A stretch of 64,000 bases of DNA, from positions 5,266,822 to 5,330,821 of the forward strand of contig NZ_KB913037.1 of NCBI RefSeq assembly GCF_000384295.1, in the 5' to 3' direction. The notes beneath the pieces are model-generated. The model saw nothing but the letters and a program-made list of their open reading frames with translations. It was not told where the DNA came from and searched no databases. This document shows, one piece after another, positions 1,553 to 26,987 of this stretch (within the stretch, counting starts at the first letter, position 1; every line of letters starts with the position of its first letter). This DNA is from Amycolatopsis balhimycina FH 1894. Lineage in GTDB: Bacteria > Actinomycetota > Actinomycetes > Mycobacteriales > Pseudonocardiaceae. Both the position numbers and the translations under genes were made by a program.

Positions 1553-1629
1553 CGCAGGACCACCGGCGCTACTGACGCCGCCCTCGACCGACGCCGGCCG
1601 GGCCGCCGATGTCCCCGGCGCGGGATGGC

Positions 1630-2028: not shown

Positions 2029-2499
2029 ACAACCCCCTACGTCCCACCCGCACAGCACAACCAACCTGTACGAACTAGTCGTGGATCAGCCGCTGAGCGC
2101 TACACCAGCGCAAGAATTCCAGGCCGCAGCGAACCCACCCTCACTAGCCGCTGATCGATCGTTCGGAGAACCCTGTGCTTGCCAAACGCCAGCACGATAA
2201 CCTGTTCCACTTCTGCGCTGCTGTCGGTGGTCCCACGACCGGCAACGTGGTGGTCTCGCCACGATGGCATGCGACAGCCAGGCGCCGTTGAGACGGACCA
2301 CTTGTTTCATCAGGCGGCGGGCTTGGGCGCTTTGAGCGCGGTAGGAGTTACTGCCGGCGTTGGGTCGGGACGGGACACCGAACACCCTTTTTGGGTGTCG
2401 ATTTTCCGCCCTCGCCCGCCGAACCGGGCGCGCCCACAGCGCTGTAGGCGCGACAAAGGCCAGGTCAGAGGGTGTTTCCTCTGACCTGGCTTCGTCGTA
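2029..2499. other. Gene-free region between membrane protein and integrase
   Basis: No convincing coding frame. It holds two hairpins: ACACCC TTTTT GGGTGT around 2380-2397, followed by a short T-run on the plus strand, and the perfect 13-bp stem listed separately at 2459. The integrase-proximal attachment site would be expected here in an AICE, but no tRNA-like sequence or TTTGCAA core was found on either strand. Confidence 0.5.
2459..2490 (-). terminator. Perfect 13-bp hairpin downstream of integrase
   Basis: GCCAGGTCAGAGG, a 6-base loop GTGTTT, then CCTCTGACCTGGC. It lies 10 bp beyond the integrase stop. On the minus strand it is followed by CTTTGTC, a weak T-run, so it probably acts as an intrinsic terminator or mRNA-stabilising stem. 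The palindrome could also be a recombinase site. Confidence 0.7.
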
Positions 2500-3690
2500 T
2501 CAGGCGGCCGTGTTGCCCGCCGTGCCTCCTGCATGCCCCTCACCTCGCCGACGACCACGCTTTCGGGCGCGTTTGCCCTGCGGGCGCCTGCGCGCCGACT
2601 CGATGTTGCGGTTCATCGCGTCGGCGATCGAGTGGTCACGCTCGCGGCGTGCACGCTGGTAGCGCAGCGCGGCCCGCGTGGTCGAGTGACCCATCCGGGC
2701 CATCAGCTCACGCGTCGTCGCGCCACTTTCAGCGGCCAGTTCGTTCCCGCTGTGGCGGAGGTCGTGAAAGTGCACATCGTCTGGGATCTGCGCAGCCTTC
2801 TTCGCCTTCACCCACAACCGGCGGAAGTTGTGTCGGCGTAGCCGGCCGCCCTGTGGGCCGATGAACACCAGGCCGTCTGCGCCGGGTTCGGCGTACCGCG
2901 CGATGTGCTCGCGCAGCTCGCCGACGATCGCCTTCGGAATGGCGATCCGGCGCTTCCCGGCTTCGCTCTTCGGGCCTTTCCACTTCGTGCCACCTCGCAG
3001 TTCGGCTTGCGAGCGCAAGACGCGGATCTCGCGGCGTTCGAGGTCGACGTCTCGACGCCGGAGCGCGGCCAGCTCGCCGAACCGCGGCGACGCGAACGTG
3101 GCCAGCAGGATGAGCATCCGATACCGCGGCTGCATCGCGTCGGCGACCGCGTACACCTGGCGAATCGTCAGCACCGGACGTTCTGCCGAGTTGTCCTCGC
3201 CGGCTCCCTTGATCCGGCAGGGGTTCCGCTTCACAATCCGGTCCTCTTCGACCGCGGTGTTGTAGATCGCCCGCAGCAGCCGGTACGCCTTCGCGACGGT
3301 CGGCTCGCCAACCTTCCGCGCCAGCAAGTCGCTGCGCCACCGGCGGACAGTCGCCTCCTTGATGCCCGCCACGGTCGAATCACCAAAGGCAGGCGCGAAG
3401 TGGTTGCGCACAATGCCTTCGTAACGCTCCCGTGTGGTGTCGCTGAGCTTCCGTTCGGCAACCCACGTCGAGGCATAGGCCATGAACGGCACCTTCCCCA
3501 GGTCCGGATCGACCCAGTCGTCGCGGATGATCTCGGTGCGCTTCTCGGCCAACCAGTCGGACGCCTGCTTGCGTGTCTCGAACGTCACGGGTGCCGGCCG
3601 CAGAGCGCCGTCCGGCCCCGGGTATCGGGCTTGCCAACGACCGGACGGCAGTCGACGAATACGGCCCCAGTCACGTCGGTTGTTTGCCAT
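2500..3690 (-). CDS. int: Tyrosine recombinase, site-specific integrase
   Basis: 396-residue phage/AICE-type integrase. The N-terminal part (about 1-60) resembles an AP2-like arm-binding domain, and residues about 65-150 a SAM-like core-binding domain. The catalytic domain shows the conserved Arg in SPRFGELAAL, a Lys in the KSEAGKRR beta-hairpin, HDLRHSG (H-x-x-R) and GHSTTRAALRY with the nucleophile Tyr near the end of the fold; all key residues are present. The ATG at 3690 overlaps the excisionase stop by one base (TGATG), so the two are translationally coupled. It is expected to insert the element into a tRNA gene. The tRNA-Ala 3' half at 26.9 kb is the only candidate seen, although several elements may share that site, so the pairing is not proven. 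Confidence 0.95.
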   Translation of the reverse strand: MANNRRDWGRIRRLPSGRWQARYPGPDGALRPAPVTFETRKQASDWLAEKRTEIIRDDWVDPDLGKVPFMAYASTWVAERKLSDTTRERYEGIVRNHFAPAFGDSTVAGIKEATVRRWRSDLLARKVGEPTVAKAYRLLRAIYNTAVEEDRIVKRNPCRIKGAGEDNSAERPVLTIRQVYAVADAMQPRYRMLILLATFASPRFGELAALRRRDVDLERREIRVLRSQAELRGGTKWKGPKSEAGKRRIAIPKAIVGELREHIARYAEPGADGLVFIGPQGGRLRRHNFRRLWVKAKKAAQIPDDVHFHDLRHSGNELAAESGATTRELMARMGHSTTRAALRYQRARRERDHSIADAMNRNIESARRRPQGKRARKRGRRRGEGHAGGTAGNTAA

Positions 3691-3908
3691 CAGGCAGCCC
3701 CCTTGAAAGCAGTCGTTCGAGGTGAAACGGTGTTTGAAGCGATGAACTCGGCCAGCACGCTTTCCGCGATGCGCACGTGGCGTCCGAGCTTGACGAACTC
3801 GATGCGCCGTTCTTCGATCAAGCGACGCGGGAACCGAACAGTGGTCCCGAGCATTTCGGCGACCTGTTCGACGTTGAGGTAGCGCTCACCAGTGCGCGCG
3901 GAACCCAT
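3690..3908 (-). CDS. xis: Excisionase / helix-turn-helix (MerR-like) protein
   Basis: 72 residues from the ATG at 3908, chosen over an upstream in-frame start because GAAAGG precedes it and the family is typically 60-75 residues. The sequence has the winged-helix excisionase pattern: YLNVEQVAEMLGTTVRF (helix-turn-helix) followed by EFVKLGRHVRI (the wing) and ESVLAEFIASN. It lies immediately upstream of and coupled to the integrase, the usual xis-int order. It likely directs excision of the element and may bind the repeated TGTCAC sites just upstream. Confidence 0.85.
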   Translation of the reverse strand: MGSARTGERYLNVEQVAEMLGTTVRFPRRLIEERRIEFVKLGRHVRIAESVLAEFIASNTVSPRTTAFKGAA

Positions 3909-3980
3909 GGCGTTGAGGACCTTTCGTGCAAGTGGATGCGGGCGGCGCAACGCGTCATGGCTCTGTCCTCCAATGTCGGG

Positions 3981-4203
3981 CGTCACTCGGGGTGTCACTC
4001 AGGTTTGGCCTGGTCAGCCAGGGTCGAGTTACGGAGTGACAGGTGTGACAGGGGTCGGGTGGTCGCGGGTGTCACTCCCGCGTCGGCGGTGTGACAGTCG
4101 GCGAAGCTGTCACTCGGGGTGTCACTCGGGTTTGTGCTGGTCAGCGACCTGGGGTGACACCGGTGACAGGTGTGACTGGATGGGCGTGGTGCCGCTGTCA
4201 CTC
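3981..4203. repeat. Iteron-like array of TGTCACTC / GAGTGACA
   Basis: About a dozen copies of TGTCAC or its complement GTGACA lie in 223 bp in both orientations, for example at 3993, 4034, 4044, 4070, 4090, 4108, 4120, 4153, 4162, 4171 and 4196; several extend to TGTCACTC. The array spans the space upstream of xis and the last 80 bp of the ATPase gene. The same hexamer forms a fixed triplet in the three attachment arms at 21.06, 22.96 and 26.58 kb. Candidate roles are replication iterons, integrase/excisionase arm sites or operator repeats. Confidence 0.75.
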
Positions 4204-5171
4204 GCGCCGGGCGCGCTGTAGATGCCGTCCACCGTGCGCGCCAGTTGGCCGGCGTCGCCCATGCGCTTGCAGGTCTGGCGGATGCTGCCCGGGTTGCCGT
4301 CGAGCGCTTCGGCGATCGCTTTCGGCGTGAGCGGCCCGTGCTCGCGCAACAGGCGCAGGATCTGCGCGCGGGTGTCGCCGACCAGGTGATCGGCGGCCGG
4401 GCCGTCGAGCTTGGTCCACCTGCCGGCGGTGGCGTCGAAGGTCATGGCGTAGTCGGCTTCTTCGACGTCGCGGCCGGTCACGTGCAACACGCCGTCCGCC
4501 TGCCCGCGGCCGCGCTCCAGCACGAGTGTGGCGTCCACCGCGCCGGTGAGCCCGTTGGTGCCGGAGACGAGGTTCTGCCAGTCCTCCGCGCCTTGCTTGC
4601 GGACGTGGTGAATGAGCAGGAACGGGACGCTGTAGTGGTCGGCCAGCTGCTTGAACCGGCCGGCCGCGGCGTAGTCGCCGGCGTAGGCGGACATGCCCGG
4701 GGCGTCGGAGCCACGCATCTTCTCGTAGGTGTCGATGATGACCAGCCGGGCGTGTGGGTTCTCCTCCAGCCACTCCACGAGCACGGCGTCTCCGCCGTTG
4801 GTCATGGTGGGGCAGGCGGTTTCGAGGGTGAGCAGCGGTGCGGCCCGCCCGCCGGCGGCGAGCATCTGCCGCCGCCGGCGCTGCAACCGACGGCCCGTGT
4901 CCTCCAACGCGCAGTAGAAGACCGGGCCGCGCTCCACCTCGATCGAGCCCAACACCTGATCACCGTTCGCGATGTCGGCTCCCAGCCCGAGGGAGAGCCA
5001 TGACTTGCCCAGCTTTGGCGCGCCGGCCAGCAGGTTCAGCCCTTCCGCCAGTAGGCCTGGGACGGCCCACTTCGGCAGTGGGAACTCCTCTCGCATCAGC
5101 TCCGCATCGGTCCACCGGGTGCGGCGGGCGGGCGGTGTCGGCACGGCGGCCAGCGGCCGGGGTGTGGTCAT
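4122..5171 (-). CDS. AAA/RepA-like ATPase of element replication module
   Basis: 349 residues. The start is fixed by GGAGGAA seven bases before the ATG. It matches the RepA/RecA-fold hexameric ATPase family (AAA_25 type): Walker A GAPKLGKS near residues 50-57, Walker B LVIIDTYEKM, then LLIHHVRKQG and a GTNGLTGAVD segment typical of these helicase-like proteins. The C-terminal 100 residues look like a winged helix (LREHGPLTPKAIAEAL). It precedes a Prim-Pol gene in the opposite transcription sense of many AICEs that use RepSA, so replication of this element probably uses an ATPase/primase pair. The last 25 codons overlap the TGTCAC repeat array, which gives an odd Ser/Thr/Pro-rich tail. Confidence 0.85.
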   Translation of the reverse strand: MTTPRPLAAVPTPPARRTRWTDAELMREEFPLPKWAVPGLLAEGLNLLAGAPKLGKSWLSLGLGADIANGDQVLGSIEVERGPVFYCALEDTGRRLQRRRRQMLAAGGRAAPLLTLETACPTMTNGGDAVLVEWLEENPHARLVIIDTYEKMRGSDAPGMSAYAGDYAAAGRFKQLADHYSVPFLLIHHVRKQGAEDWQNLVSGTNGLTGAVDATLVLERGRGQADGVLHVTGRDVEEADYAMTFDATAGRWTKLDGPAADHLVGDTRAQILRLLREHGPLTPKAIAEALDGNPGSIRQTCKRMGDAGQLARTVDGIYSAPGASDSGTTPIQSHLSPVSPQVADQHKPE

Positions 5172-5193
5172 GGCTGGTTCCTCCGAGTGTTGG

Positions 5194-6129
5194 TCAGGCG
5201 ACGTGCCGCGGGCGCTTCGCGCCGGCGCGCAGACCGGACGTGATCGTGCGTTCGGCCTCGCGTTCGGTGAACTGTCGCGTCCCGATGTGGCGGCCGGCGG
5301 CGGTCATCAGCGCCGCGCGCACCTCGTCTTCGGTGAGCGCGTCGCCTTCGACCAGCTGCCCCAGGGCGACGGCGGCGGCGTAGAGGGTGGCGTTGCGGTT
5401 GGTCTTGGCGTCGGCGACCTTCCCGGCCTCCGCGCGTACCGCGACGTCGAGGTAGCGCGAGCGCCGGGTACTGGCCGGGCGGATCGGCCGCACCGGCGCG
5501 GCCGGCAGCGGTGCCGGGGTAAGCCGCTCGATCAACCAGACGGGCAGCTCCGCCACCGGCCCGTCCCACACGTAGGCGTAGCGGCCGGCGCGGGTGAGCG
5601 TGCCGGGGCCGACGACGTAGCCGCCCCACGCGCGGGTGTCGACCTTCCACCCGAGCCCTTGCCCCCGCTCGCCGCTGGTGTTGCGTAGCACCACGCCGGC
5701 CGGGACGCGGTAGTACAGGTGCAGCCCACCCGACGGTGTCCGGACGGTGAGCGTGTCGCCGGGCAGCTCCTCGCACGCTTCGTCGGCGAGGACGGCAAGC
5801 ACGTCTTCCCCGCACCGCGCGCCGACCGCGGCCCACCGCGCCGGCACCTCCTCGCCGGACTTGGTCGTGTCGAGGTCGAGCACGCACAGCCCGGACGGTC
5901 CGGCCGCGATGCCGATCCCGTACGGGGCGTGCGTCCACGCGGCCCGGATCTTGCCCGGGTCGGTAGTGGCGCGCTGCTCCCACGTGCGGTGTCCGCCGGC
6001 GCACCGCCCGGTGCCGGGGCAGCCGTCTTCGGCGTGCCCGGCCGGGCGCTTGCTGCCGGGCCGGAGCGGGAAGACGTGCCACCCGCGGGCGGCCGCGTTC
6101 AGCGCGGCCGTCATCGTCGTGCTGTCCAT
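5194..6129 (-). CDS. Bifunctional DNA primase/polymerase (Prim-Pol) protein
   Basis: 311 residues from the ATG at 6129, preceded by AAGGAGA; an in-frame upstream extension has no such site. Prim-Pol hallmarks are visible: N-terminal AALNAAARGWHVFPLRPGSK, an acidic metal-binding motif LCVLDLDTTKSG, RTPSGGLHLYYRVP, GLGWKVDTRAWGGYVV and GPGTLT. The C-terminal segment (about 215-311) is helical and contains the GLRAGAKRPR tail seen in AICE Prim-Pols. It probably synthesises primers for element DNA copying together with the ATPase encoded 22 bp downstream. Confidence 0.9.
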   Translation of the reverse strand: MDSTTMTAALNAAARGWHVFPLRPGSKRPAGHAEDGCPGTGRCAGGHRTWEQRATTDPGKIRAAWTHAPYGIGIAAGPSGLCVLDLDTTKSGEEVPARWAAVGARCGEDVLAVLADEACEELPGDTLTVRTPSGGLHLYYRVPAGVVLRNTSGERGQGLGWKVDTRAWGGYVVGPGTLTRAGRYAYVWDGPVAELPVWLIERLTPAPLPAAPVRPIRPASTRRSRYLDVAVRAEAGKVADAKTNRNATLYAAAVALGQLVEGDALTEDEVRAALMTAAGRHIGTRQFTEREAERTITSGLRAGAKRPRHVA

Positions 6130-6152
6130 TGTGGTCTCCTTCTGCTTAGTGG

Positions 6153-6374
6153 TCAGGCGAACGGGTTGGACGGCGGGCGGGAGTTGCTCGCGTTGGGCGC
6201 GATCTGGTGCAGGGCCTCGCAGATTCCGCATGTGCGGTGCAGGAACGGCAGCCACGGGGTGCGGACGGCGTGGCGGGGAAGCTCGAGCCCGCAGAGGGTG
6301 TCGACGCGCCGGGCCAGCCAGCGAGCGCGCCCGCGGTGCAGGGTGCCGTTGAACAGGTAGCGGGTGAGTGCCAT
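6153..6374 (-). CDS. Small AICE hypothetical protein with Cys cluster
   Basis: 73 residues, ATG preceded by GGAAGG eight bases upstream. Basic N-terminus (RGRARWLARRVD), then TLCGLELPRH and HRTCGICEALHQ. Three Cys (LCG and CGIC) plus His residues could bind zinc. Proteins of this size and motif set recur between the primase and transfer genes of AICEs, with no known function. It ends 23 bp before the primase start, so it is probably co-transcribed. Confidence 0.7.
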   Translation of the reverse strand: MALTRYLFNGTLHRGRARWLARRVDTLCGLELPRHAVRTPWLPFLHRTCGICEALHQIAPNASNSRPPSNPFA

Positions 6375-6642: not shown

Positions 6643-8814
6643 CTAGCTTTCGTCGTCGAGCTCGGCGGTTGCCTGTCCAGCCAGGGCATCACGGATCGTG
6701 ACCGGGTCGACCAGGTAGCGGTTCTGCGAGCTGGGCACCTTCACCCCGACCGCGGCGAGGTCGGCGCACAGCTGCTTGCCGGTCAGGCCGCTGTACTCGG
6801 TGGACAGCGCAATGAGCAGCGGCGCCACCTTCGCGGCCGGCACCGGCTCGTCCCCGAGAACCTCGTCGAGGTCTTCGAGCAGGTTCCGCGGCGCCGGCGG
6901 CGCCTCCAATTCGCCGCTTTCCCTGGTGGACCAGGGCACGCGGCCGCACTTCGCGATCGCCGCCAGTCCGCGTTCGATGATCGGGGTCACCTGGTCGTTG
7001 TCCTTGGCGACGTCGAGGAAGTACACCTGCACGATCTCCGAGCGTTCCCCGGAGAAGCCCTTGACCACCGCGGTTCCCTTGTCGGTGCCCGGAATCAGCT
7101 CGGTGGCGCGGTGCCCGGCCGCGTAGGCGCCCTGCCCGAGCAGCGCGTCGTTGGCGACGTGGTCCCCCACGGCGAACGCGATGCCGTTGGAGCAGTTCCG
7201 TGTCACGTCCCTGGGCATGGAATCCTTGGTCGGCGCCTGGGTCGAGACGATCAGGTGAATGGCGCGCTTGCGGCCCAGACGAACGATGTCGACCAGCAGT
7301 TGGCCGATCTCCTCGCCGTACTTCTTGTGCTGGATCGCCACGTGGGCCTCTTCCAGCAGGCAGAAGATCGGGTGCAGCCCGGCGTTCTTCGACGCCAGAT
7401 CCCGCGTCACCGCCGGGATTTCGTGCTTGACCAGCAGGTCACCGCGCCGCTGCACCTCCGCGTGCAACTCCCGCAGGTCAGCCAGGATCTGGGAGATCTT
7501 CTCGTCTTCGGCGCCCATGACGTAGCGGGAGCAGCGCGGGGCGAACACCTCGAAGTCGTAGTTGGCGTCCGGGACCCAAATCCGCAGCTCAGCGGTGGGA
7601 TCGAGGGCAGCGCCGGCCATGATGACCCGGGCCGCGGAGGACTTGCCCTGACCGGGCATGCCGCCGCAGATGGTGTTGCGCTCCAGCAGCGGCGCCATCA
7701 TCGGCTCCCCGCGTAACGTCCGTCCGAACGGGACACCCTTGAACACGTCCACCGCACCGTCTTCCAACAGCGGGTACGGCCCCGCCCCTTCCGAGAGGGC
7801 ACCCTTGTCGGCCACCCACAGGTCCAGGATTCCGGCTTCGCTGCCGGTGGTCGGCCACACCTCTTTGGACAGCCGGTGCAGGCCCGTGGCCAGGTCAGCG
7901 CGTCGCCGGGCGACCTTCTCGGCCGTGACCCCGGCGGGCAGGCGCAACACGGCGTGCGTGCCGCGCCCGTCCCGGCGCGCCGGGGTCAGGTACTGCATCG
8001 GCAGACCTTCCTTCAGATAGTTGGTGATCTGCGGAATCCGCAGTGCGGCAAGGGCTTGCGCGATGGTCGTCTCATCAATCGCCACGTCGGAGTCCTCGGT
8101 GGAGGTGGCGAGCCAGCCGGGGACCTTGCCGCGCTGCTGGCCCTCGCGCCACGCTGCCAGCACCACACCGACGCTGATCACATACGGCGCGACCAGCGCA
8201 AGCGGCGTCCACGCCCACGCGATGGCGGTGAAAATGAACCGCAGCGCGTCCATCACCCCGCCCACGACGCGGGTGAACTCGCCGGCGCCGGACAGCTGCA
8301 CCAGCAGCCCGATCAGGAGCACGATCACCACCAGCGCCGCCAGGCCCACGACCCCGGCTTTGACCAGGCCGACCAGCAGTTTCGGCAGGTCCATCAGCCG
8401 GCGGTGCCGGGCGTCCTGCACCCGCGCCTTACGCTCCAGCCACTCGGCGACCAACGCCTGATCGCCCGTCGCTTCGGCGGCCTTGATCTGCCGCCGGTAG
8501 ACGCCCATCGTGGACGCGTCCCACGCGCGGCCGCGCCAGGAGTCCAGGCCCTGGATCATCGTGAGGCCGTGGTTGATGGCGGCTTTGGTCTTCTCGTGCG
8601 TCGCGGCCTTGCGTGCCGCGGTGGCGACGACCACGACGTCGCGGCGGTACCCCTCGTACCGGGCCAGTGCCCGGGCCTTCTGCGACGTGCGGGCCGCGTA
8701 CTCCTCCGGGGTCAGGATCTCGTCCGGCTCGATCGCCGCGCCCCGATCGGAGCCGACAGGCAGGTGGTGCACCGTCGCCAGCTCGCCGGCGCCCGGGTTG
8801 GTGTCCGTGCTCAT
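6643..8814 (-). CDS. traB: FtsK/SpoIIIE-type conjugal DNA translocase (TraB-like)
   Basis: 723 residues. ATG at 8814 is chosen because GAAAGGA lies about 8 bases upstream; a GTG at 8835 overlapping the upstream stop is an alternative. The N-terminus is soluble and helical, two hydrophobic stretches lie near residues 150-225 (VVGLAALVVIVLLIGLLVQL and a second one), and the motor domain has Walker A GGMPGQGKSSAA, Walker B PIFCLLEEAHVAI and RLGRKRAIHLIVSTQAP, which is the FtsK-type sensor motif. The C-terminal 70 residues form a winged-helix-like region (YSGLTGKQLCADLAAVGVK). In actinomycete mating, TraB-like hexamers move double-stranded DNA between cells. It is the main transfer gene of the island. 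Confidence 0.93.
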   Translation of the reverse strand: MSTDTNPGAGELATVHHLPVGSDRGAAIEPDEILTPEEYAARTSQKARALARYEGYRRDVVVVATAARKAATHEKTKAAINHGLTMIQGLDSWRGRAWDASTMGVYRRQIKAAEATGDQALVAEWLERKARVQDARHRRLMDLPKLLVGLVKAGVVGLAALVVIVLLIGLLVQLSGAGEFTRVVGGVMDALRFIFTAIAWAWTPLALVAPYVISVGVVLAAWREGQQRGKVPGWLATSTEDSDVAIDETTIAQALAALRIPQITNYLKEGLPMQYLTPARRDGRGTHAVLRLPAGVTAEKVARRRADLATGLHRLSKEVWPTTGSEAGILDLWVADKGALSEGAGPYPLLEDGAVDVFKGVPFGRTLRGEPMMAPLLERNTICGGMPGQGKSSAARVIMAGAALDPTAELRIWVPDANYDFEVFAPRCSRYVMGAEDEKISQILADLRELHAEVQRRGDLLVKHEIPAVTRDLASKNAGLHPIFCLLEEAHVAIQHKKYGEEIGQLLVDIVRLGRKRAIHLIVSTQAPTKDSMPRDVTRNCSNGIAFAVGDHVANDALLGQGAYAAGHRATELIPGTDKGTAVVKGFSGERSEIVQVYFLDVAKDNDQVTPIIERGLAAIAKCGRVPWSTRESGELEAPPAPRNLLEDLDEVLGDEPVPAAKVAPLLIALSTEYSGLTGKQLCADLAAVGVKVPSSQNRYLVDPVTIRDALAGQATAELDDES

Positions 8815-8831
8815 GGTGGTGTCCTTTCGGC

Positions 8832-9932
8832 TCACTGGTTCGGGTTCTTGTGCTCGTCGCGCAGCTGGCGGGCGTACTTCGGCGCGCAGCGCAGCGTCTT
8901 GCGGATCGACTCCGCCGACTTCGGGTTGATCGCTACGTCCGGGTTGTCGATCGCCGCGGCGAACGCGGCACGCAGGTCCTCGATCGAACGTGTCTTCGGT
9001 GCCCGCGGAGGTCGGGGCTTGCGGGTCGATTTCGGCTGCTCGCCGGGGCGATCGAGGGTCAAGATCGGGGCGTCGACGATCGGGCCGTCGTCGGCGCGCG
9101 GGGCCTGGTCCTGCTCGGCGAAGAACGCGGCGATCTCCTCATCCAGCACGTCCGCGGCGAGCCGGTCCGGGGCGACCACCGACGCGAGTCGACGGCCGTC
9201 GAGGGTGTAGCGGCCCGGGGTGAACACCAGTCGCGCTGTGCCGTCCGCGGCCAGCTCCGCCACCGCCGTACGGACGGCGGCCCGCCGAACCCGGGCGACC
9301 TTGCGCAGCGTCTTGCGCTCGATCCGGGCAGCGGCCCGCTCCGCCGCCGATCGGGGCGGGGACGCGACGGCGAGCTGATGCGCGATGACCCCGGCGACGG
9401 ACACGATGCCCATCACCACCGCGGCGTCGGCCCCGCGGTGCCAGCCGTGCAACACGTTCAGCGCGAACCCGACACCGGCGAACACCCACACCCCGAGCTG
9501 CAACGCCCACACCGGCCGCTCCGGATGGCGGTGCCGGGTGACCTCCACCGCGAACGCGAACGCCCACATGCCCAGCTCCGACAGCGCCGGCAGCGGCGCA
9601 CCGGTGGCGTTGCCGTAGACACCCACGCCGAAGCCGGCCATCGCGGGCACCGCCATGCCCGCCGACACCAGGGCGAGCAGGTAGATCGGCAACCGGACCC
9701 GGTTCGCCGACAGCCAATCGGCCACGCTGGCCACCATGGCGGCCCGGCGCGCCTGCCGCGCCTTGCGCTGCTGCTCGGCCAGCTTCGCCGCTGCGGTGGT
9801 GTCGGCGCGGCGCTGCTCGGCCGCCGCGCTCTGCGCTCGCAACTTGCGCTCCAGCACGGCGTTCGCGTCCTGCCGCTGGATCTCCGCCTCAGCCGCGCGG
9901 GTCGCGCGGCGCTCCTCAGCCCAGCTGCTCAT
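8832..9932 (-). CDS. spdB: SpdB-like membrane spread protein (DUF2637 type)
   Basis: 366 residues. A charged, Ala-rich coiled-coil N-terminus (1-65) is followed by four hydrophobic segments between about 75 and 185 containing GFGVGVYGNATGAPL, WAFAFAVEVTRHRHPER and VVMGIVSVAGVIAHQL. This matches the DUF2637 family found beside TraB in actinomycete plasmids and AICEs. The C-terminal half is soluble, basic and Pro-rich, and ends in an HTH-like SIRKTLRCAPKYARQLRDEH. Spread proteins are thought to distribute the element within the recipient mycelium. The start overlaps the upstream gene by 4 bp, and traB begins 18 bp after its stop. Confidence 0.85.
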   Translation of the reverse strand: MSSWAEERRATRAAEAEIQRQDANAVLERKLRAQSAAAEQRRADTTAAAKLAEQQRKARQARRAAMVASVADWLSANRVRLPIYLLALVSAGMAVPAMAGFGVGVYGNATGAPLPALSELGMWAFAFAVEVTRHRHPERPVWALQLGVWVFAGVGFALNVLHGWHRGADAAVVMGIVSVAGVIAHQLAVASPPRSAAERAAARIERKTLRKVARVRRAAVRTAVAELAADGTARLVFTPGRYTLDGRRLASVVAPDRLAADVLDEEIAAFFAEQDQAPRADDGPIVDAPILTLDRPGEQPKSTRKPRPPRAPKTRSIEDLRAAFAAAIDNPDVAINPKSAESIRKTLRCAPKYARQLRDEHKNPNQ

Positions 9933-11390: not shown

Positions 11391-11434
11391 CTGTCAACTG
11401 ACATGTGAGAACTGACTTAGCCAACTGACTTGGC
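11391..11434. promoter_or_regulatory. Operator-like triple AACTGAC repeat
   Basis: AACTGAC occurs at 11396, 11410 and 11423 (14 and 13 bp apart), twice followed by TT. It sits in the divergent promoter region between the GntR gene and the transfer operon. This is the expected place for a KorSA-like GntR repressor to control both itself and transfer. Confidence 0.6.
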
Positions 11435-11447
11435 CTACGCTGGTGGT

Positions 11448-11801
11448 ATGGCATCTCTGAACCCGGACGACCCGCGTGCGCCGTTCTTGCAAGTAGCCGG
11501 CGGTCTCCGGGCCGCGATCCTGTCGGGGGAGTACGCCCCAGGAGCGCAGTTGCCGACCTACCAGGAACTGGCCGATTCCTGGGGAGTCGCGGTGAACACG
11601 GCCAAGAGCGCCGTCGCCCACCTCAGGGAAGAAGGCCTGGTGGTGATCCGGCACGGCAAGGGCTCGTTCGTGCGCACCCAGCCGGCCGAAGGTGACTCCG
11701 TGGCTCGCCCCGAGGCCTCGGGGGACGAGCGGGTCTGGCAGGCCATTGCCGAGATCCGGAAGCGTCTCGGCGAGATCGAGAGGAAGCTGGGGGAGAACTA
11801 G
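11448..11801 (+). CDS. GntR-family repressor (KorSA-like)
   Basis: 117 residues from the ATG at 11448, preceded by GGTGGT. The N-terminal winged helix-turn-helix is typical of GntR: VAGGLRAAILSGEYAPGAQL, PTYQELADSWGVAVNTAKSA, EGLVVIRHGKGSFV. The short C-terminus (about 75-117) is a charged helix (IAEIRKRLGEIERKLG) with no ligand domain, as in pSAM2 KorSA and similar plasmid regulators. It is divergent from the transfer operon, with operator-like repeats between them, so it probably represses transfer. Its 3' end overlaps the convergent small membrane gene by 4 bp. Confidence 0.88.
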   Translation: MASLNPDDPRAPFLQVAGGLRAAILSGEYAPGAQLPTYQELADSWGVAVNTAKSAVAHLREEGLVVIRHGKGSFVRTQPAEGDSVARPEASGDERVWQAIAEIRKRLGEIERKLGEN

Positions 11802-15368: not shown

Positions 15369-15371
15369 AGT

Positions 15372-15629
15372 TCAGGCCGCTCCATTCGGTCGTTGGGTCT
15401 CTTCGCCTGGGTGGTTGGGCAGCGTCGCCGGATCAAGTGCTGTTCCGTCCAGCTCTCCGGCGCGGGCAGCCAGCTCGGCACCGATGCGCACCAGGTCTCG
15501 ACCGAGCTGGCGGAGCGCGGCCGCGTACTCGGCGTCATCCGCCTGGAGCGTGAGCAGCCGAATCGTGGCGTTGCCGATCTCAGCGTTTACGCGCGCGAGA
15601 CCGGCGAGTAGTTCCCGGTCGCGTCTCAT
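15372..15629 (-). CDS. Small helical protein, paralogue set member 1
   Basis: 85 residues from the ATG at 15629, whose A is the last base of the upstream stop (TGATG). It begins RRDRELLAGLARVNAEIGNA and continues in helices (AAALRQLGRDLVRIGAELAA). The DRELL start and helical layout resemble the two neighbouring small proteins. It sits directly before the XRE-DUF5753 gene with 3 bp between. No family recognised. Confidence 0.65.
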   Translation of the reverse strand: MRRDRELLAGLARVNAEIGNATIRLLTLQADDAEYAAALRQLGRDLVRIGAELAARAGELDGTALDPATLPNHPGEETQRPNGAA

Positions 15630-20857: not shown

Positions 20858-21139
20858 AGTGGAGGACTCTAAACGTCCGGCGCGACTGACGCACGAGGCT
20901 CGCGGGTGACCTGCACGGTTGCAGTCGACGTGGTCAGGGGGTCTCAGTGGCCGCAAATGGCCCGGATTCGCGAGCAGGTTTTGGCGACGATCGAGTTCGG
21001 GGTGGCAACCGTCGCCAAACCTCGGGTTGTGGCCGAGTAACGCCTATGGAACGCCCGGACTGTCACACCTGTCACGCTGTCACTCAGTTGAAACAGGTCC
21101 CTGACCAGAAAATACGGTTCCCGCAGGTCAGCGGAGAGA
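20858..21139. other. Attachment arm 1 with TGTCAC triplet
   Basis: No gene is seen. TGTCAC occurs at 21061, 21070 and 21078 (spacing 9 and 8), and the last 50 bp before the 32-bp att-like sequence resemble the arms before the two other copies (CTGACC, then CGCAGGTCAGCG). Confidence 0.6.
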
Positions 21140-21171
21140 CGGGTTCGCACCTTTGCAACGCGGTGGTCAGG
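21140..21171. repeat. Attachment-like repeat copy 1 (32 bp)
   Basis: Begins CGGGTTCGCACCTTTGCAA and ends GGTGGTCAGG; identical over 32 bp to the copy at 23253 and 30/32 identical to the copy at 26878 that runs into the tRNA-Ala 3' half. The tRNA anticodon-loop core TTTGCAA is retained, but the T-arm does not follow. It includes the stop codon of the gene at 21167. Confidence 0.8.
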
Positions 21172-22759
21172 TGGGTTTGCGGACGAGGCCGGTGTAGGCG
21201 GCGATGGCGAGGGTTGCCAGGCCCCAGAGGAGGGCTTGGAGTGCCCAGAGGATGGCTGTGAAGGTTTGGCCCCAGCCGGTGGTGGTGTCGAGGTCGCAGT
21301 GGGCGCGAATGCCGGTGGTGCCGAGGGGGAGACCACGGTCGATGCCGAGGCCGATGAGTTCGACGGGTGAGCAGGGTGTGCCCGGGTCCGTGGGTTTTGC
21401 GGTGGGGGGTAGGACGCGTTCGGCGGCGTGGTGGTCGGGGTGGGTGGTGACGTGCCCGGCGAGCAGGCTGAGTGTGGCGGCGAGGGTGAGGATGACGGCG
21501 AGGGCGGTGGCGAGGCGGTGGGCGCGGTAGCCGTAGCGGCCGAGCCAGCCCCAGAGCGCGTGTCGCGCGCGCGCGAGCCGGTTGCCCAGAGCCTCGGGGG
21601 TGCGTCGGCGGAGGTCGTGTTGCTGGGTGATCAGGACTTCGCGGGCGTTGTTGTCGTGGCCGGCGGCGCATTCGGTTGCGGCGAGTTGCTGGAAGGGTTG
21701 GGGCCAGTAGGTGAGGGTGTGGTGAACCAGCAGGTGCAGCCATTGACGCCACGATGTTTCACGCAGGATGGGGTAAGTCAATCCGTGGACTGTGAGGGTG
21801 CGGTCGCTGTCGGGGCAGCCATGCCGGCTCATCCCCTCCTGACCGGCCGGGCACACCACCGCCGCTGGGAACAGCAACGCCCCGGTGGTCTGCGCCTCAT
21901 GCAGTACTAGGAGTGGGCCCGAGCTGTTGTCCAGTCCGGAGACCAGCAGGACAGCTTGGCCGCCGATGTGGGCGCCGAGCAGCCGGATCGCGCCGTGTTC
22001 TCCGGTGCCGGTGACGGTGGCGTCCCGCATGTGCAGGCTGCTGTCGGTGCGGAGGCGGTCGGCGTGCAGGGCGGGACCGGTGGTGTTGGTGATGGCGGCC
22101 CGATCGAGTACGAGTGGGCCGCCGATGTGGGCGCCGAGCAGCCGGATCGCGCCGAGTTCTCCGGTGCCGGTGACGGTGGCGTCCCGCATGTGCACGCTGC
22201 TGTCGGTGCGGAGGCCGTCGGCGTGCAGCGCGGGACCGGTGGTGTTGGTGATAGTGGCTCGGCTGAGGCCGAGTTCAGCGCCGATGTGGGCATCGGACAG
22301 TCGAACTGCGCCGAGTTCTCCGGTGCCGGTGATGGTGGCGTCCCGCATGTGCAGGCTGCTGTCGGTGCGGAGGCCGTCGGCGTACAGGTGGGTGAGTAGG
22401 CAGTGGTTCAGGTACAGGCAGCGAAGGCGCGCGTATCGGCAAACGACGCCGTTCGGTAGCGCACATCGGTACAAGTCCAGACCGGTGATGGCGGTGACGT
22501 GATCGAGGTCGAGCCGTCCGACGACCCGCACACCCGCTATCCGGATTCCGCGGGGATCGAGGTCACCGTGCAAGCCTCGGAGCAGTTCGCGGAGGAGATC
22601 CGCTCGTATCCGCATTTCGGGGTCGTCGGTGACCGCCAGCTCCTCCACCGTCATCGCGGTGGCGGGTCTGGCGACTTCCCCGCGGCGCGCGGTGTTGACC
22701 ACCCGTTGCTCGAACTCGGTTAGGTCAGTCAGCACGGGTGAGGGCTGCGTCTCGTCCAC
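21167..22759 (-). CDS. Beta-helix repeat membrane protein
   Basis: 530 residues, GTG start at 22759. The N-terminus (MTVEELAVTDDPEMRIRADL, RELLRGLHGDLDPRGI) is a helical head. Residues about 70-285 form a right-handed-beta-helix-like repeat region with near-identical 53-residue units (ALHADGLRTDSS, HMRDATVTGTGELGAIRLLG, AHIGG). Residues about 340-410 are Trp/Arg-rich. The C-terminus has two transmembrane segments (LATALAVILTLAATLSLLAG and TAILWALQALLWGLATLAIA). Related actinomycete proteins are often annotated only as oxidoreductase or pentapeptide-like; no enzyme motif is seen. The stop codon lies inside an attachment-like repeat, and a broken copy of the N-terminus sits before the third repeat. 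Confidence 0.75.
   Translation of the reverse strand: MDETQPSPVLTDLTEFEQRVVNTARRGEVARPATAMTVEELAVTDDPEMRIRADLLRELLRGLHGDLDPRGIRIAGVRVVGRLDLDHVTAITGLDLYRCALPNGVVCRYARLRCLYLNHCLLTHLYADGLRTDSSLHMRDATITGTGELGAVRLSDAHIGAELGLSRATITNTTGPALHADGLRTDSSVHMRDATVTGTGELGAIRLLGAHIGGPLVLDRAAITNTTGPALHADRLRTDSSLHMRDATVTGTGEHGAIRLLGAHIGGQAVLLVSGLDNSSGPLLVLHEAQTTGALLFPAAVVCPAGQEGMSRHGCPDSDRTLTVHGLTYPILRETSWRQWLHLLVHHTLTYWPQPFQQLAATECAAGHDNNAREVLITQQHDLRRRTPEALGNRLARARHALWGWLGRYGYRAHRLATALAVILTLAATLSLLAGHVTTHPDHHAAERVLPPTAKPTDPGTPCSPVELIGLGIDRGLPLGTTGIRAHCDLDTTTGWGQTFTAILWALQALLWGLATLAIAAYTGLVRKPT
21946..22400. repeat. 159-bp tandem repeats inside the beta-helix gene
   Basis: About three near-identical 159-bp (53-codon) units; GCCGATGTGGGCGCCGAGCA recurs about 160 bp apart, with a degenerate third copy near 22279. 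Nucleotide-level identity implies recent expansion or gene conversion. Confidence 0.75.
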
Positions 22760-23284
22760 GCCATCAATGTCGATGACACGCTACCGAATGTGACATCTGA
22801 AACCCACCTCCTCGCGGCGGGCACCCTTCTTGGACGTGCCCGCAGCCAAGACGGTCAACTCGGGGGAATGACGAGCTGCTGCGTGCGTTGCGGTACGTCC
22901 GCGCCGAGGTTACCCGCGGAGCCTGCTGCGGCTCGGTGTGACAGCTGCGGCGTGTCGAGGCTGTCACACCTGTCACTCTGTCACTCGACTCCGTCTGACC
23001 TGCGGGTTTGGGTGTGACAGGTGAGTGATACCTTCGGTAACTGCTTTCTCCCCACTCTAATTCTATGTCTCTGCAGTCACCGGAAGACCGAAAGCGGCTG
23101 AAACACCGGGGGCCCCGCGTGTTTCAGCCACTTGTGTCCCCACGTGCCCCTTGCGTGCCCGTTGCCGGGGGAGTGCGCGGGGAATCACGGGGAACGACAG
23201 GCCGTGCAGAGCGCTGACCAGGGAGCGAAGGTTTCGCAGGTGAGCAGCGAGACGGGTTCGCACCTTTGCAACGCGGTGGTCAGG
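22500..23284. repeat. Arm repeat copy A (gene 5' end plus arm plus att 2)
   Basis: This 0.8-kb stretch aligns along its length with 26097-26909: the beta-helix gene start, an intergenic arm of about 480 bp, and the 32-bp attachment-like sequence. The arm has TGTCAC at 22962, 22971 and 22979, TGTGACAG at 23012, the string GTGCCCGTTGCCGGGGGAG, and CGGGGAACGACGG-like sequence. No gene is supported in 22760-23249. Confidence 0.8.
23253..23284. repeat. Attachment-like repeat copy 2 (32 bp)
   Basis: Identical to the copy at 21140. Sequence to the right (TCGCTGACCGAACAG) shows no tRNA T-arm, so the site is not a functional tRNA end. Confidence 0.8.
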
Positions 23285-23898
23285 TCGCTGACCGAACAGA
23301 ACGAGCAACTACGTCGTCAACTTGAATGCGCCTACGCTGAGATCCGACGACTTGAAGCACAAGTACCGAGAAGATCCGCGACATCCTGCACCTGAGCACT
23401 AGGCAAGACAACGCGTCATGCCACCGCTCAAGCAACTTGCCTGACGACGCTGGCCATAATTTCGTCCTCAACCGAGCTCGCCCGACGGCTCAACCGACAC
23501 CTATGACAGCGGACACTTAGAGTGAGATGTCATCTACTGAGAGACATAGTTGCTGCACGGAGCAATGGTCGAGCAAAGCGCGGCGGCCTCTCGCGGCCAA
23601 ACGAGAGGCCGCCAGCGCTGATGAGGATCTCGTCCAGGCAACGGAGCAAGTACCTCTGATCTAGTTATAGGTAGCCTGGCCCCTCTGTCCGGACAGGATG
23701 CGTCAACGAGGAGAGAAGTTTTCTAGAGTCGCCGGGCTCCAGGCGCCCAGGTCATGTCGTTATGGCCACGGTTGCCGATGCGGTCACGGTCCGGCGGCAC
23801 CCGGGCAGGCGGCCCTGCGCGGAGGCAGTGCCGTTGCCCAGCATGTGGGATATGCGGCCGCGCCTGCGGGCCGCAGGAGTGCGCTTCCGGCAACTGAG
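23285..23898. other. Gene-poor cargo start with hairpin and possible gene remnant
   Basis: A short plus-strand frame at about 23284-23370 encodes a coiled-coil-like fragment (LTEQNEQLRRQLECAYAEIR), possibly a remnant of a recombinase-associated small protein. A 12-bp perfect hairpin GGCGGCCTCTCG, CGGCCAAA, CGAGAGGCCGCC lies at 23582-23613. No complete gene is supported. Base composition is lower in GC than the flanks. Confidence 0.45.
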
Positions 23899-25041
23899 TT
23901 AGGAGAGGCTTGAGGTCTCTTCGGGAGCGCAGGCCAGTTTCAAGCTGTCGTAAAATTGTTGAAGGTCTGACACTGCGCCCTTGGAGTGGGGATTGGGACG
24001 ATTCACGTCTGGGAACTCTGTTCGAATCGCATCCAGAACCCTTCGGGTGACGCGAGCCCGCTTTGACATCCAGGACACCCTATCTTCTCTATCCACATCC
24101 ACATCGATGTGGTCGAGAATAATGTCGAGCATGTTGTGGGGAATCTTGGGTGAGGGTCGATAGAGTGCAGGGAAGCGCGAGTCCTCGAAAGTCTTCCGCG
24201 CGTTGTCGATAATTCCCTTGATCGTAACGGCCATTTCCAATGTTCCCACCCCCCATTGCTGGAGGTGCTGCCAAGTCTCGATCAGAGTCGTAGTTTTAGT
24301 GAACTCTTCATTGGTAAGGTCGATGCTCCTGCGGGCGCGGTCCTTCCGGATCTTTTTGCGAGCGCGCGCCAACATCTTGCGAACGGCATCTGGGGTCGCA
24401 TCGATTGCGGAGGCGATTTCGCCATGAGTCAGCCCTGCGCCATGCAATAAGAGTATGTGCCGCTCGCGTTCCGTGACGCGGGCGAGCACTTCCATGAGCT
24501 CCAACTTGGCAAGAGTCTGACGCTCAGGATCCACTCCCTCGGAAGACGTGGCTGCAGTCAGCTGCTGGACATCGTCGGGCATGGCGTCGACGAGAACTTC
24601 GTTCAAGGCCTTCAATCGTGCGGCTCGGGAAACCTTTCGCAGCCCGGAGGGGAACTCGCGAATGCAGGCGTTGATGAACGTGGTGCTAATTGATGCCAAC
24701 CCGGGGCGCCACCGCTGTTCGCCGAGCAAGAATTGGGACATGAATAGTCTTCCAGCTTCGGCTATTACATCCATAACAAGGTCCATTTGGTCGACGTCAG
24801 ACAACCGTCGGAGCTCGCTGGGAGGTATTGGACGTCCGATTTGCATAACCTTGTTAACGATTTGTCCCGACTTGACAAGGTCGCGCATGACTGGAATTGC
24901 GTATCTATACAAACGGGTCATTAAAAGCTGGGCTTCTTGGCTGCTTGAGCCTTTGTCTCGGACTACGCGGACAAGTTCCGCTTCACTCCGGAGTCGGGCT
25001 TCGTCGCGGAATCCGCGACTGAGATTGTGTGAGTCAGACAT
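23899..25041 (-). CDS. Sigma-70 region-4-like protein with unknown C-terminal domain
   Basis: 380 residues, ATG at 25041. Residues about 15-125 are helical, with a possible sigma-region-2-like layout (AQLLMTRLYRYAIPVMRDLV, LSDVDQMDLVMDVIAEAGRL). Residues about 185-240 hold a clear sigma region 4 helix-turn-helix: LARVTERERHILLLHGAGLT, HGEIASAIDATPDAVRKMLA, RARKKIRK. The last 140 residues match nothing I recognise (TIKGIIDNARKTFEDSRFPA, MLDIILDHIDVDVDREDRVS). No typical -10-recognition signature is visible, so it could be a sigma-like regulator rather than a true sigma factor. AT-richer codons than its neighbours suggest transfer from elsewhere. It is the last gene of a small operon between two attachment-like repeats. 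Confidence 0.7.
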   Translation of the reverse strand: MSDSHNLSRGFRDEARLRSEAELVRVVRDKGSSSQEAQLLMTRLYRYAIPVMRDLVKSGQIVNKVMQIGRPIPPSELRRLSDVDQMDLVMDVIAEAGRLFMSQFLLGEQRWRPGLASISTTFINACIREFPSGLRKVSRAARLKALNEVLVDAMPDDVQQLTAATSSEGVDPERQTLAKLELMEVLARVTERERHILLLHGAGLTHGEIASAIDATPDAVRKMLARARKKIRKDRARRSIDLTNEEFTKTTTLIETWQHLQQWGVGTLEMAVTIKGIIDNARKTFEDSRFPALYRPSPKIPHNMLDIILDHIDVDVDREDRVSWMSKRARVTRRVLDAIRTEFPDVNRPNPHSKGAVSDLQQFYDSLKLACAPEETSSLS

Positions 25042-25043
25042 GA

Positions 25044-25196
25044 CTATCCGCCTCCCGCTGCTCGACTCCAGGCAAGGCGCCCGAACGCGGTTGCCTGTCC
25101 GAGTAACCCCGCATCACGCAGATCGGCGACACCGCCTGCACCGCCTCCATTCGGAGGCGGTGCAGGCGAAGCGGTCGTGCTACCGGGGGTGATCAT
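25044..25196 (-). CDS. 50-residue Pro/Gly/Ala-rich protein
   Basis: The ATG at 25196 overlaps the XRE-like gene's stop (ATGA), and its TAG lies 2 bp before the sigma-like gene. Sequence: MITPGSTTASPAPPPNGG, then VADLRDAGLLGQATAFGRLA. The frame also contains a GC hairpin (CCGCCTCC with GGAGGCGG). It could be a real small protein or a coupling ORF for the next gene. Confidence 0.45.
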   Translation of the reverse strand: MITPGSTTASPAPPPNGGGAGGVADLRDAGLLGQATAFGRLAWSRAAGGG

Positions 25197-25510
25197 CGGT
25201 GTCGGCGGCCCTTGGCCGCGTCCTTCAGCAGGATCTGCAACATCGCCAAGTCGATGACGGTGCCGTCCTTGGCTACGACCGCGGCGGTCGACGATTCGAC
25301 CGCATGGATCTCCGAAGCGCACGCGATGAAGTAGGCCTTCACGACGGCCCAGTTGGGCACCCGCTGGCCGGTTCCCGCGCGGAACATCACCGTGTGGTGG
25401 TACATCGCACGGCTTCCAAGCTCTCTCCACGTCAGGTCGGCAAGCTCTCGCAGCTCGCCCAGAACCTGGGCGAGCTGCGAGAGTGGAACCTGACCCTTGT
25501 CCCGGGTCAT
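25193..25510 (-). CDS. XRE-like helix-turn-helix protein
   Basis: 105 residues. The pattern LSQLAQVLGELRELADLTWR, ELGSRAMYHHTVMFRAGTGQ, RVPNWAVVKAYFIACA fits the short actinomycete XRE-type domain (rely-and-bind helices followed by W-V-A-Y). The remaining C-terminus (AAVVAKDGTVIDLAMLQILL) is unassigned. It is first or second in a four-gene run ending with the sigma-like gene, so it may regulate or partner that protein. Confidence 0.6.
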   Translation of the reverse strand: MTRDKGQVPLSQLAQVLGELRELADLTWRELGSRAMYHHTVMFRAGTGQRVPNWAVVKAYFIACASEIHAVESSTAAVVAKDGTVIDLAMLQILLKDAAKGRRHR

Positions 25511-25524
25511 GGTGGAGGCGCCGC

Positions 25525-25803
25525 TCAGGTGTTCTCGGCGCCCGGGTCACCGAGCTTGTCGACCACCACCGCGGCCAGCGCGGCGCAGCCGGCGACCGCG
25601 GCGACCGCGGCCGCCGGGTCGACCCCGGCGATCACCATCTTCACGACGGCCGCCACGGACACGCCGAAGACCACGAACCAGATGAACCAGCGGCCGCGGC
25701 GCTTCACCGCCGACACGCAGGTGCGCAGCGGCGGCAGGGGCCACCACAGGACGCAGCCCACGAAGGCCAGCACCTTCCGCACGGCGGAAAGGATCTTGCT
25801 CAC
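25525..25803 (-). CDS. Small membrane protein
   Basis: 92 residues from GTG 25803 with AAAGGAAG upstream. Three hydrophobic stretches: AVRKVLAFVGCVLWWPLPP, WFIWFVVFGVSVAAVVKMVI and AAAVAAVAGCAALAAVVVDK. It lies 14 bp before the XRE-like gene and heads the cargo operon. TGGCAACACG occurs twice about 14 bp apart upstream, near 25978, a possible operator. Function unknown. Confidence 0.6.
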   Translation of the reverse strand: MSKILSAVRKVLAFVGCVLWWPLPPLRTCVSAVKRRGRWFIWFVVFGVSVAAVVKMVIAGVDPAAAVAAVAGCAALAAVVVDKLGDPGAENT

Positions 25804-26072
25804 GATGATCTTCCTTTGCTCGAAACGTTGCCTGGACTCCCTGGTCGCGTTCACGGGCGTCTGCGCCCCGGAGAACCGGAGTGCCTCGTTGGCAGCGAGA
25901 CCCGAGCACGAAACCAGTGCCGAAACTCTGACAGACCCGCTTCCGTTCCGCCAGCCGACAAGCACATTTCGGGCGATCTGGCAACACGGATGGCAACACG
26001 CCGATCCACAAAGGTCCATGCGCAGCTGCGTCGCGGACACGTTCACGACGCAAAGTTCCTGCTCAGGAGCCC

Positions 26073-26366
26073 CTAAGTCGAGGAGCTGGAGATAACCGCG
26101 GTGACATGAGCCAGGTCGAGCTCTCCGGCAACCCGCACACCCACTACCCGGATTCCGCGGGGGTCGAGGTCACCGTGCAGGCCGCGGAGCAGTTCGCGGA
26201 GCAGATCGGCTCGCACCTGCAGTTCGGAGTCGTCGGTGACCGCCAGTTCCTCCACCGTCATCGTGGTGGCGGGTTTGGCGACTTCCCCGCGGCGGGCGGT
26301 GTCGACCACCTACCGCTCAAGCTCGGTCAGGTCGGTCAGCACGGGTGAGGGCTGCGTCTCGTCCAC
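26073..26366 (-). pseudogene. Truncated, nonsense-mutated copy of beta-helix protein gene
   Basis: From GTG 26366 the frame reads DETQPSPVLTDLTELER, then an in-frame TAG, then VVDTARRGEVAKPATTMTVE, LAVTDDSELQVRADLLRELL and RGLHGDLDPRGIRVVGVRVA. This is clearly homologous to the N-terminus of the protein at 21167-22759. Homology stops near 26097, after which a few unrelated codons lead to a stop, so the repeat region and membrane domain are lost. Confidence 0.85.
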
Positions 26367-26909
26367 ACCACCACAGTCGATTACACGCTAAGAAATGTGA
26401 CACTTGACGGCCCCACGCAGTAGACGCACCTTTCCTGGACGTGGCCGCATCCAAGGCTGGCGGAATTCGGGGATGACATGCCCGGTCGGTGCGTTGCGGC
26501 ACGTTCCGAAACCGGGGACCCGGGGACACCTGCGGAGACTGCCGCGGCTCGGTGTGACACGTGCAGAGTGTCGAGGCTGTCACACCTGTCACTCTGTCAC
26601 TTCACTGGAACTGACCTGCGGCTTTAGGAGTGACAGGGGAGTGACACCTTCGGTGGCGGCTCTTCTCCCACACTAACGGTATGTCTCAGTAGTCACCGGG
26701 CAGAGAAAAGAAGCTGGAACACCGGGGAGTTGGCCACAACCACGTGTTCCAGCCGCGTGTGCCCCTGCGTGCCCCTCGCGTGCCCGTTGCCGGGGGAGCG
26801 CGCGGGGAACATCGGGGAACGACGGACCGTGTAGGACCCTGAACGGGGGATACGGGTTTCGCTGGTCAGCGGTGAGTCGGGTTCGCACCTTTGCAAGGCG
26901 GGGGTCAGG
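26097..26909. repeat. Arm repeat copy B (gene 5' remnant plus arm plus att 3)
   Basis: Second copy of the 0.8-kb arm at 22500-23284, diverged but alignable throughout. TGTCAC at 26578, 26587 and 26595 keeps the same 9/8 spacing; GTGACA follows at 26630 and 26641. No intact gene lies in 26367-26877. Confidence 0.8.
26878..26909. repeat. Attachment-like repeat copy 3 (attR)
   Basis: Differs from copies 1 and 2 at two positions and continues directly into a tRNA-Ala anticodon-arm 3' side and T-arm. This is the junction of integrated DNA with the chromosome. Crossover probably lies in the CCTTTGCAAGG stretch at 26888-26898. Confidence 0.8.
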
Positions 26910-26931
26910 GGTTCGATTCCCCTCAGCTCCA
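26888..26931 (+). tRNA. alaT: tRNA-Ala(UGC) 3' half left at attR (partial)
   Basis: Anticodon loop TTTGCAA (anticodon TGC), 3' anticodon stem GGCGG, T-arm CAGGGGTTCGATTCCCCT and acceptor 3' strand CAGCTCC plus A. No D-arm or 5' acceptor strand precedes it, so this copy is not a functional tRNA. In related actinobacteria tRNA-Ala(UGC) lies between gyrA and ppiA, matching this locus. Confidence 0.85.
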
Positions 26932-26987
26932 CAGTTGAATGGCTCGTACTCGCCCAGGGTGCGGGCCATTTTTCACGTCCGGCGGCG

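Follow-up and report, generated by a model that had tools for sequence, protein, structure and literature searches.

The genome of Amycolatopsis balhimycina FH 1894 (G000 here) was analysed over a stretch of 64,000 nucleotides, the window (G000:C1:5266822-5330821, on a 10.86-Mb contig), and was compared with 79 other Amycolatopsis genomes, giving a set of 80 in which G-numbers are genome labels. The window carries what is probably a 27.6-kb composite actinomycete integrative and conjugative element (AICE) in tRNA-Ala(UGC), which may be mobile. Its bounds would be the intact tRNA gene on the left (attL, outside the window) and, on the right, the last of three attachment (att)-like repeats, copy 3, as the sole true attR. 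Within the same, jointly graded reading, the two inner repeats, copies 1 and 2, are fossil right ends of older elements, carried along while the elements changed ends and targets. Few first-look candidates were scored per genome in the searches (Int, 23; PP 3' ends, 8; the 2.8-kb segment, 3; the left remnant, 3; armA-armB, 2; others, 7 or 10), and the counts given are lower bounds.

The attachment pair consists of a 46-bp core at G000:C1:5266115-5266160 and its exact match in the window, 27,594 bp apart. The first lies in an intact tRNA-Ala(UGC) (G000:C1:5266086-5266159), approximately 0.66 kb left of the window, and ARAGORN found no tRNA-Ala within the window itself. Here, integration in the 3' end of the tRNA gene has left direct repeats and a restored tRNA. 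An earlier note, made from the window alone, had placed the element in tRNA-Ala(UGC), taken copy 3 for the displaced 3' half, put the integrase-side site outside the window and advised looking to the left for tRNA-Ala and gyrA; all of this is borne out. Further left of tRNA-Ala are gyrA (97% amino acid identity to that of G078) and tRNA-Ile, with gyrA before tRNA-Ile, and the gene order in G078 (Amycolatopsis vastitatis H5, contig NZ_NMUL01000003.1) is gyrB, gyrA, tRNA-Ile, tRNA-Ala. The neighbour on the right is a DrrA-like ABC transporter; no ppiA was seen at this position, and no search aimed at ppiA was made. The site is unoccupied in G028, where tRNA-Ala is followed by 82 bp and then the ABC-transporter flank, and in G066 it holds a simple, single element that has a single left arm, int and, some 9.9 kb further, a single attR. 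Decayed elements are present at tRNA-Ala in G054 and G078, the two ends of the latter being on two contigs, both broken inside the PP gene.

From the left, the gene order is NB-ARC/TPR cargo; int and xis; genes for an AAA_25 protein and a Prim-Pol; an FtsK-like gene; conserved small genes; a GntR gene; APH-family and HTH-DUF5753 genes; the PP gene, which encodes a repeat protein; and a sigma-70-like gene (Table 1). The tyrosine integrase with its excisionase, the replication module of the Prim-Pol kind and the tRNA 3'-end insertion are those of an AICE. The FtsK-like protein has homologues of 35-92% in related elements. Int is not of the integron type (IntI), scoring 41.2 bits with the integron integrase model, which has a cut-off of 265. 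The GntR regulator may have a KorSA-like role.

Table 1. Features of the element inside the window, from left to right (window positions)
Feature	Position	Strand	Remarks
Outer left (tRNA-side) remnant, window part	1..2433	-	NB-ARC/TPR cargo, then short stretch repeated in other genomes
Inner left arm P(b)	2434..2579	+	overlaps int 3' end; att core gone
int, tyrosine recombinase, 396 amino acids	2500..3690	-	PF00589, 66.5 bits
xis, excisionase family	3690..3998	-	TIGR01764, 48.7 bits, cut-off 28.8
Replication genes	4122..6255	-	AAA_25 protein 4122-5171, 112 bits; Prim-Pol 5194-6255, PF09250, 147 bits
FtsK/TraB-like transfer protein	6643..8835	-	below cut-off: PF01580 17.6 bits vs 24; TraB 27.4 vs 800
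GntR regulator	11430..11801	+
Right end P'(1), shortened	21060..21137	+	26-bp iteron block and 3' part of armB
Copy 1	21138..21171	+	half-core joined to PP(C) 3' end
PP(C), 530-amino-acid repeat protein	21167..22759	-	likely membrane helices (by eye); sub-threshold Pfam match only; no NCBIfam match
Right end P'(2)	22935..23262	+	armA (22935-23111) and armB
Copy 2	23251..23284	+	end of P'(2) with half-core TTTGCAACGCGGTGGTCAGG
2.8-kb segment where PP(D) body would be expected	23286..26097		sigma-70 region-4 protein 23899-25041 (-); small HTH protein 25193-25510 (-)
PP(D), 5' remnant of second repeat-protein gene	26098..26397	-
Right end P'(3)	26551..26887	+	armA 26551-26730; armB 26731-26887, Ala-type arm
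attR core, displaced 3' half of tRNA-Ala(UGC)	26888..26933	+	46 bp

The three repeats and their right-end arms

A 34-bp string is identical in copies 1 and 2 and recurs with three mismatches at 26876-26909, as copy 3; a match of this kind appeared in none of 100 dinucleotide shuffles. The string includes the 32 bp (from 21140, 23253 and 26878) that the earlier note had described as identical in the first two copies and 30/32 identical in the third. This is correct, with copy 3 differing at two positions, and the similarity is wider than had been described. Upstream of copies 2 and 3, about 800 bp are alike in pieces (300 nt at 87%, 180 nt at 81% and 170 nt at 81%), the related stretches being 22491-23284 and 26098-26909 (81-87%), and a shortened version precedes copy 1. 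As the note also said, copy 3 alone continues into the T-arm and acceptor end of tRNA-Ala.

Judged by their sequence, copies 1 and 2 are right-end arms (P') with only the beginning of the att core, which stops shortly after the anticodon loop. Each has a half-core only, and a left arm was found at neither. In copy 1, TTTGCAA is followed on the right by CGCGGTGGTCAGG and then by the PP gene. Most of these 13 bp resemble the natural 3' flank of the neighbouring PP gene, and this flank is similar in other genomes where there is no arm at all (GGCGGTGGTCAGG in G078). In addition, the core sequence GGCGGGGGTCAGG and the flank GGCGGTGGTCAGG are themselves similar at 12 of 13 bp.

In all, 23 PP 3' ends were found in 18 genomes. 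Of their alignments, 16 start at query 38-45 (window 21160-21167), three further right and four further left, and these last four, in G000, G056, G061 and G051, carry arm and half-core. That the PP gene has a secondary att site of its own was rejected, as the half-core is absent from 19 of the 23. Copy 2 would once have led into a second PP gene, PP(D), whose body was replaced; the 2.8-kb segment now in its place had no DNA match in the other 79 genomes of the genus (E 1e-10, 3 candidates scored per genome).

Ala-type ends at other tRNA genes

The pattern GGGTTCGCACCTTTGCAA, allowing up to two mismatches, gave 10 hits in 7 of the 80 genomes (seven exact, one with one mismatch, two with two). 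The reversed pattern was as frequent (12 hits in 11 genomes), and only hits with flanking arm similarity were used; G014 was dropped. Ala-type half-core ends number seven in five genomes, a G051 copy duplicated by an insertion sequence being left out, and four of the seven are at other tRNAs: Phe (G061), Ile (G051) and Tyr (G028 and G051). The G061 element is flanked by tRNA-Phe on one side and a 44-bp tRNA-Phe repeat on the other, and it encodes a different tyrosine integrase of its own; that of G051, spread over two contigs, is flanked by tRNA-Ile and a repeat of tRNA-Ile. In G028 and in G051 contig C116, the Ala arm with its half-core is followed by a different arm and tRNA-Tyr, and G028 has a second tRNA-Tyr 3' half on the far side. 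Conversely, in G040 an element with tRNA-Ile at its bounds contains a near-whole tRNA-Tyr core (61 bp at 98%). With a threshold of E 1e-100 and 23 candidates scored in each genome, Int had one close homologue in the other 79 genomes (G066, 84%) and others at 50-51% in G053 and G057; an Ala-type Int was not found in G061, G028, G051, G056 or G078. As Ala half-cores thus occur at other tRNAs in relatives where an Ala-type Int was not detected, and a Tyr core occurs in a tRNA-Ile element, inner copies are no proof of repeated integration at the resident tRNA. A second att array in G051 (L064, with two TTTGCAA copies) was rejected, since next to the second copy lies a cargo-bearing insertion sequence (L064:6048-8976; presumably IS1549/IS1634-type), whose ends repeat about 31 bp of target including the half-core, which looks like a long target duplication.

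The right ends can be followed by armA, a block of about 180 bp with CTGTCAC/GTGACAG repeats. At least 25 such blocks were seen in the genus and 20 were examined (those in G078 C5, G050, G039, G001 and G058 were left out), and all 20 aligned well. Sequence of a tRNA 3' half lies within 320 bp of the block in 15 of the 20, starting within 200 bp in 14 (Ala 2, Ile 4, Thr 4, Arg 3, Tyr 2); that beside the G028 block is part of an intact tRNA-Tyr. The five blocks without one are G000 copy 2, G061 and G051 C116, all of which have Ala half-cores, the first block of G040, and G065. In the family, the armA-armB stretch was matched in at least 32 of 390 genomes and 10 of 46 genera; as an example of how these are lower bounds, G040 has three armA blocks and two rows in the family survey. 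The G176 match is to armB only. It lies in another genus (G176:C12:727441-727575), with 73% similarity over armB and half-core, and therefore the Ala-type arm may be older than the genus. Short copies of armA are also seen around the xis-AAA intergenic stretch (3992-4195). Two types of FtsK, of about 37-40% and 66-92% to that of the window, adjoin related Prim-Pol genes (L053-L068). As armA is found with both types but with related Prim-Pol, a putative role as an origin or a site of replication or transfer control is plausible.

The arms were assigned using informative sites at which P'(2) and P'(3) differ, and the left arms P(a) and P(b) likewise. G078 sides with P'(3) by 50 to 13 of 63 decided sites, whereas the arms at other tRNA sites side with P'(2): G061 by 48 to 19, G028 by 52 to 16 and G051 by 35 to 18. 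Therefore, P'(3) is the end shared with the resident element of G078, whose attR is at the same site as copy 3, and P'(2) is of a lineage found elsewhere.

The remainder of the element has mixed relatives as well. The backbone (about 4080-11328) is common in pieces, at 79-86%, to the elements at tRNA-Ile in G040 (unmatched at about 6110-8580) and at tRNA-Phe in G061, while the int-xis module (2434-3887) is common to the tRNA-Ala element of G066 (1464 bp at 79%, E 1e-20), the backbone of which had no DNA match to the window element at E 1e-20. G066 was rejected as a source of the rest, only int-xis being matched besides GntR (48%) and a short armB similarity. As int-xis and backbone have different relatives, integration modules and backbones have been exchanged. 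The cargo block at 11333-15375 (GntR, APH-family, HTH-DUF5753) is 86.7% identical in DNA to the tRNA-Ile element of G051, with 98% for the GntR protein. Upstream of the element in G000, a second region of about 11.6 kb lies at tRNA-Ile (G000:C1:5251245-5262953, L145:12246 to L019:4954), with an intact tRNA-Ile, a 43-bp tRNA-Ile repeat and partial APH-like and HTH-DUF5753-like matches; it resembles another, partly decayed element. A tRNA-Leu(CAG) is present near the right end of the window (60430-60513).

Origin of the inner repeats

The reading that copies 1 and 2 are fossil right ends in a composite AICE is well favoured by these comparisons. A fossil of this kind would be an arm with the first part of a core, stranded inside an element once a new right end had been attached outside it. 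Two related elements would first come to adjoin one another; a deletion or a homologous exchange would then fuse one element's att core with the right part of its neighbour at the 12/13-bp similarity, and the hybrid would retain its outer ends and travel with the fossil inside. As the family has exchanged integrase modules, fossils of one tRNA type would come to sit in elements that are now at another. The att pair, the gene content, the Ala-type half-cores at other tRNA genes and the two left arms are observed, while the order of these events and the mechanism of recombination are our proposal.

Several observations weigh against this reading. All three sites in G000 are Ala-type, and one inner copy may have arisen at this tRNA-Ala; of the seven half-cores, G000 itself contributes two and G056 one that is at tRNA-Ala, where serial integration is possible. 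The tRNA-Ile half-core of G051 is degenerate (CTTGCAT for TTTGCAA), and that case rests on two contigs that break off in one and the same gene; at tRNA-Tyr in G051, the contig ends before a second tRNA-Tyr repeat is seen. The tRNA library used for the armA comparison holds 16 types only, and absences in the genome searches are not absolute because of the few candidates scored per genome. P'(1) can be assigned to neither lineage (nine sites with P'(3), six with P'(2)) and PP(D) does not clearly side with the G078 gene (20 vs 16 sites). The PP gene pieces and P'(1) being undecided, the right part is itself mosaic. On the left, 18 of 26 sites place P(b) rather than P(a) with G078 (p = 0.08), and the order of left-side events is therefore moderately supported.

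Serial integration at this tRNA-Ala, as proposed in the earlier note, would have three successive elements leave three att sites, two of them now decayed. That all three sites in G000 are Ala-type, that P'(2) and P'(3) are from different lineages and that accretion is documented in AICEs (in the parts consulted of PMC9513070 and PMC3218068) are consistent with it. However, the inner junctions lack a left arm and the T-arm or acceptor half of the core, whereas accretion would leave complete cores there, each with a right arm on one side and a left arm on the other; the copy-1 junction is common to elements at other tRNAs, and G040 has an inner site of another specificity. As an account of the three repeats, serial integration is thus unlikely, and there is no support for copies 1 and 2 as decayed sites of integrations into this tRNA, the same type of arm and half-core being found at tRNA-Phe, tRNA-Ile and tRNA-Tyr.

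The left side does speak for repeated integration at the locus, and this part of the earlier proposal is likely, although the duplicated left arm lay beyond what the note could see. The left arm is present twice, as P(a), which adjoins the tRNA, and as P(b), where CCACA is all that is left at the junction near 2434. At its end, P(a) carries about 25 codons of a second int tail, closing with GKRTRRPGRGRGKGHAGGTAGGTAA and the stop, and is followed by the NB-ARC cargo. Two left arms and two int 3' ends are remains of more than one integration module, as tandem accretion would leave. P(a) sides with G066 at 17 of 22 sites (p = 0.02) and with G054 at 17 of 25 (p = 0.11). Most simply, the tRNA side received a second element that has since lost int and its right end, which is likely and is the best evidence for serial integration here; this would be an independent event, of which the left arm and int tail beside the tRNA, outside the main element, are what remains. 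A short stretch at 2147-2276 (query 1848-1977) is repeated in many genomes of the genus and is probably a mobile-element remnant.

A local tandem duplication of the unit PP gene, right arm and half-core, by unequal crossing-over between att core and PP 3' flank, is improbable. The unit does recur in head-to-tail order, there is no difference between copies 1 and 2 over 34 bp and the junction falls at the 12/13-bp similarity; duplication could still account for copies 1 and 2. With a difference of about 21% between them and closer relatives of each in other genomes, P'(2) and P'(3) were not recently copied from one another, and the informative sites reject this origin for that pair. An integron-like gain, in which Int inserts circles of PP gene, arm and half-core at attR, so that each insertion puts one more arm and half-core to the left of the true attR, would give the exact order seen, with a non-tRNA right half at the inner junctions (CGCGGTGGTCAGG, identical twice) and the tRNA version outermost, but is highly improbable, as arm and half-core are absent from 19 of 23 PP 3' ends, no free cassette was seen and the junction bases differ in G061 and G051.

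Two extensions of the fossil-end reading are taken together as a long shot. Half-core right ends might still be substrates for the matching integrase, in which case the genes next to the right end would come and go as cassettes do, and elements might change their tRNA target by taking up the outer end of a neighbour, leaving behind a record of targets (Ala, Tyr, Ile, Phe).

Relation to known elements and meaning

The window element shares with Prim-Pol-type AICEs the tRNA 3'-end target, tyrosine Int and Xis, Prim-Pol and, probably, the FtsK-like gene (modules as set out in the consulted part of PMC3218068), but has two left and three right arms instead of one of each, and inner half-cores. Tandem and accreted AICEs likewise show more than two att-like repeats at one tRNA gene. 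According to sections of PMC3218068, Frankia Fean5518-Fean5534 are tandem AICEs and Fean6303 has three direct repeats and excises from either of two attL sites; here, two of the three repeats lack half of the core, and their type recurs at other tRNAs. Extracts of PMC9513070 describe accretion at tRNA-Arg in Streptomyces and integrase switching, in which the same element family has different integrases and targets; old right ends kept inside the element are not mentioned in those extracts, whereas here they are kept and readable. PAISt, with modular excision via an internal att site, also has one internal and two flanking repeats (PMC4057263, in part), but its site is an 8-bp palindrome in bacA and its excision is demonstrated, while the window element is known from sequence alone. 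In a literature search of titles and abstract beginnings, with subscription-journal papers on pMEA-type elements outside it, stranded right ends of other tRNA specificity inside AICEs were not named. Tandem AICEs, the three-repeat element, accretion, integrase switching and modular excision were thus known already, and what appears new is to see inner half-cores as fossil ends that stem from other targets.

Att-like repeats inside an element are easily read as the mark of several integrations into a single site, as in the earlier note. The comparison suggests that such repeats can travel with the element and may belong to another tRNA, which makes them unsafe as counts of integrations. The conserved armA block is a simple marker for finding right ends in this AICE family, and the inner repeats may be useful as a record of target changes within it.

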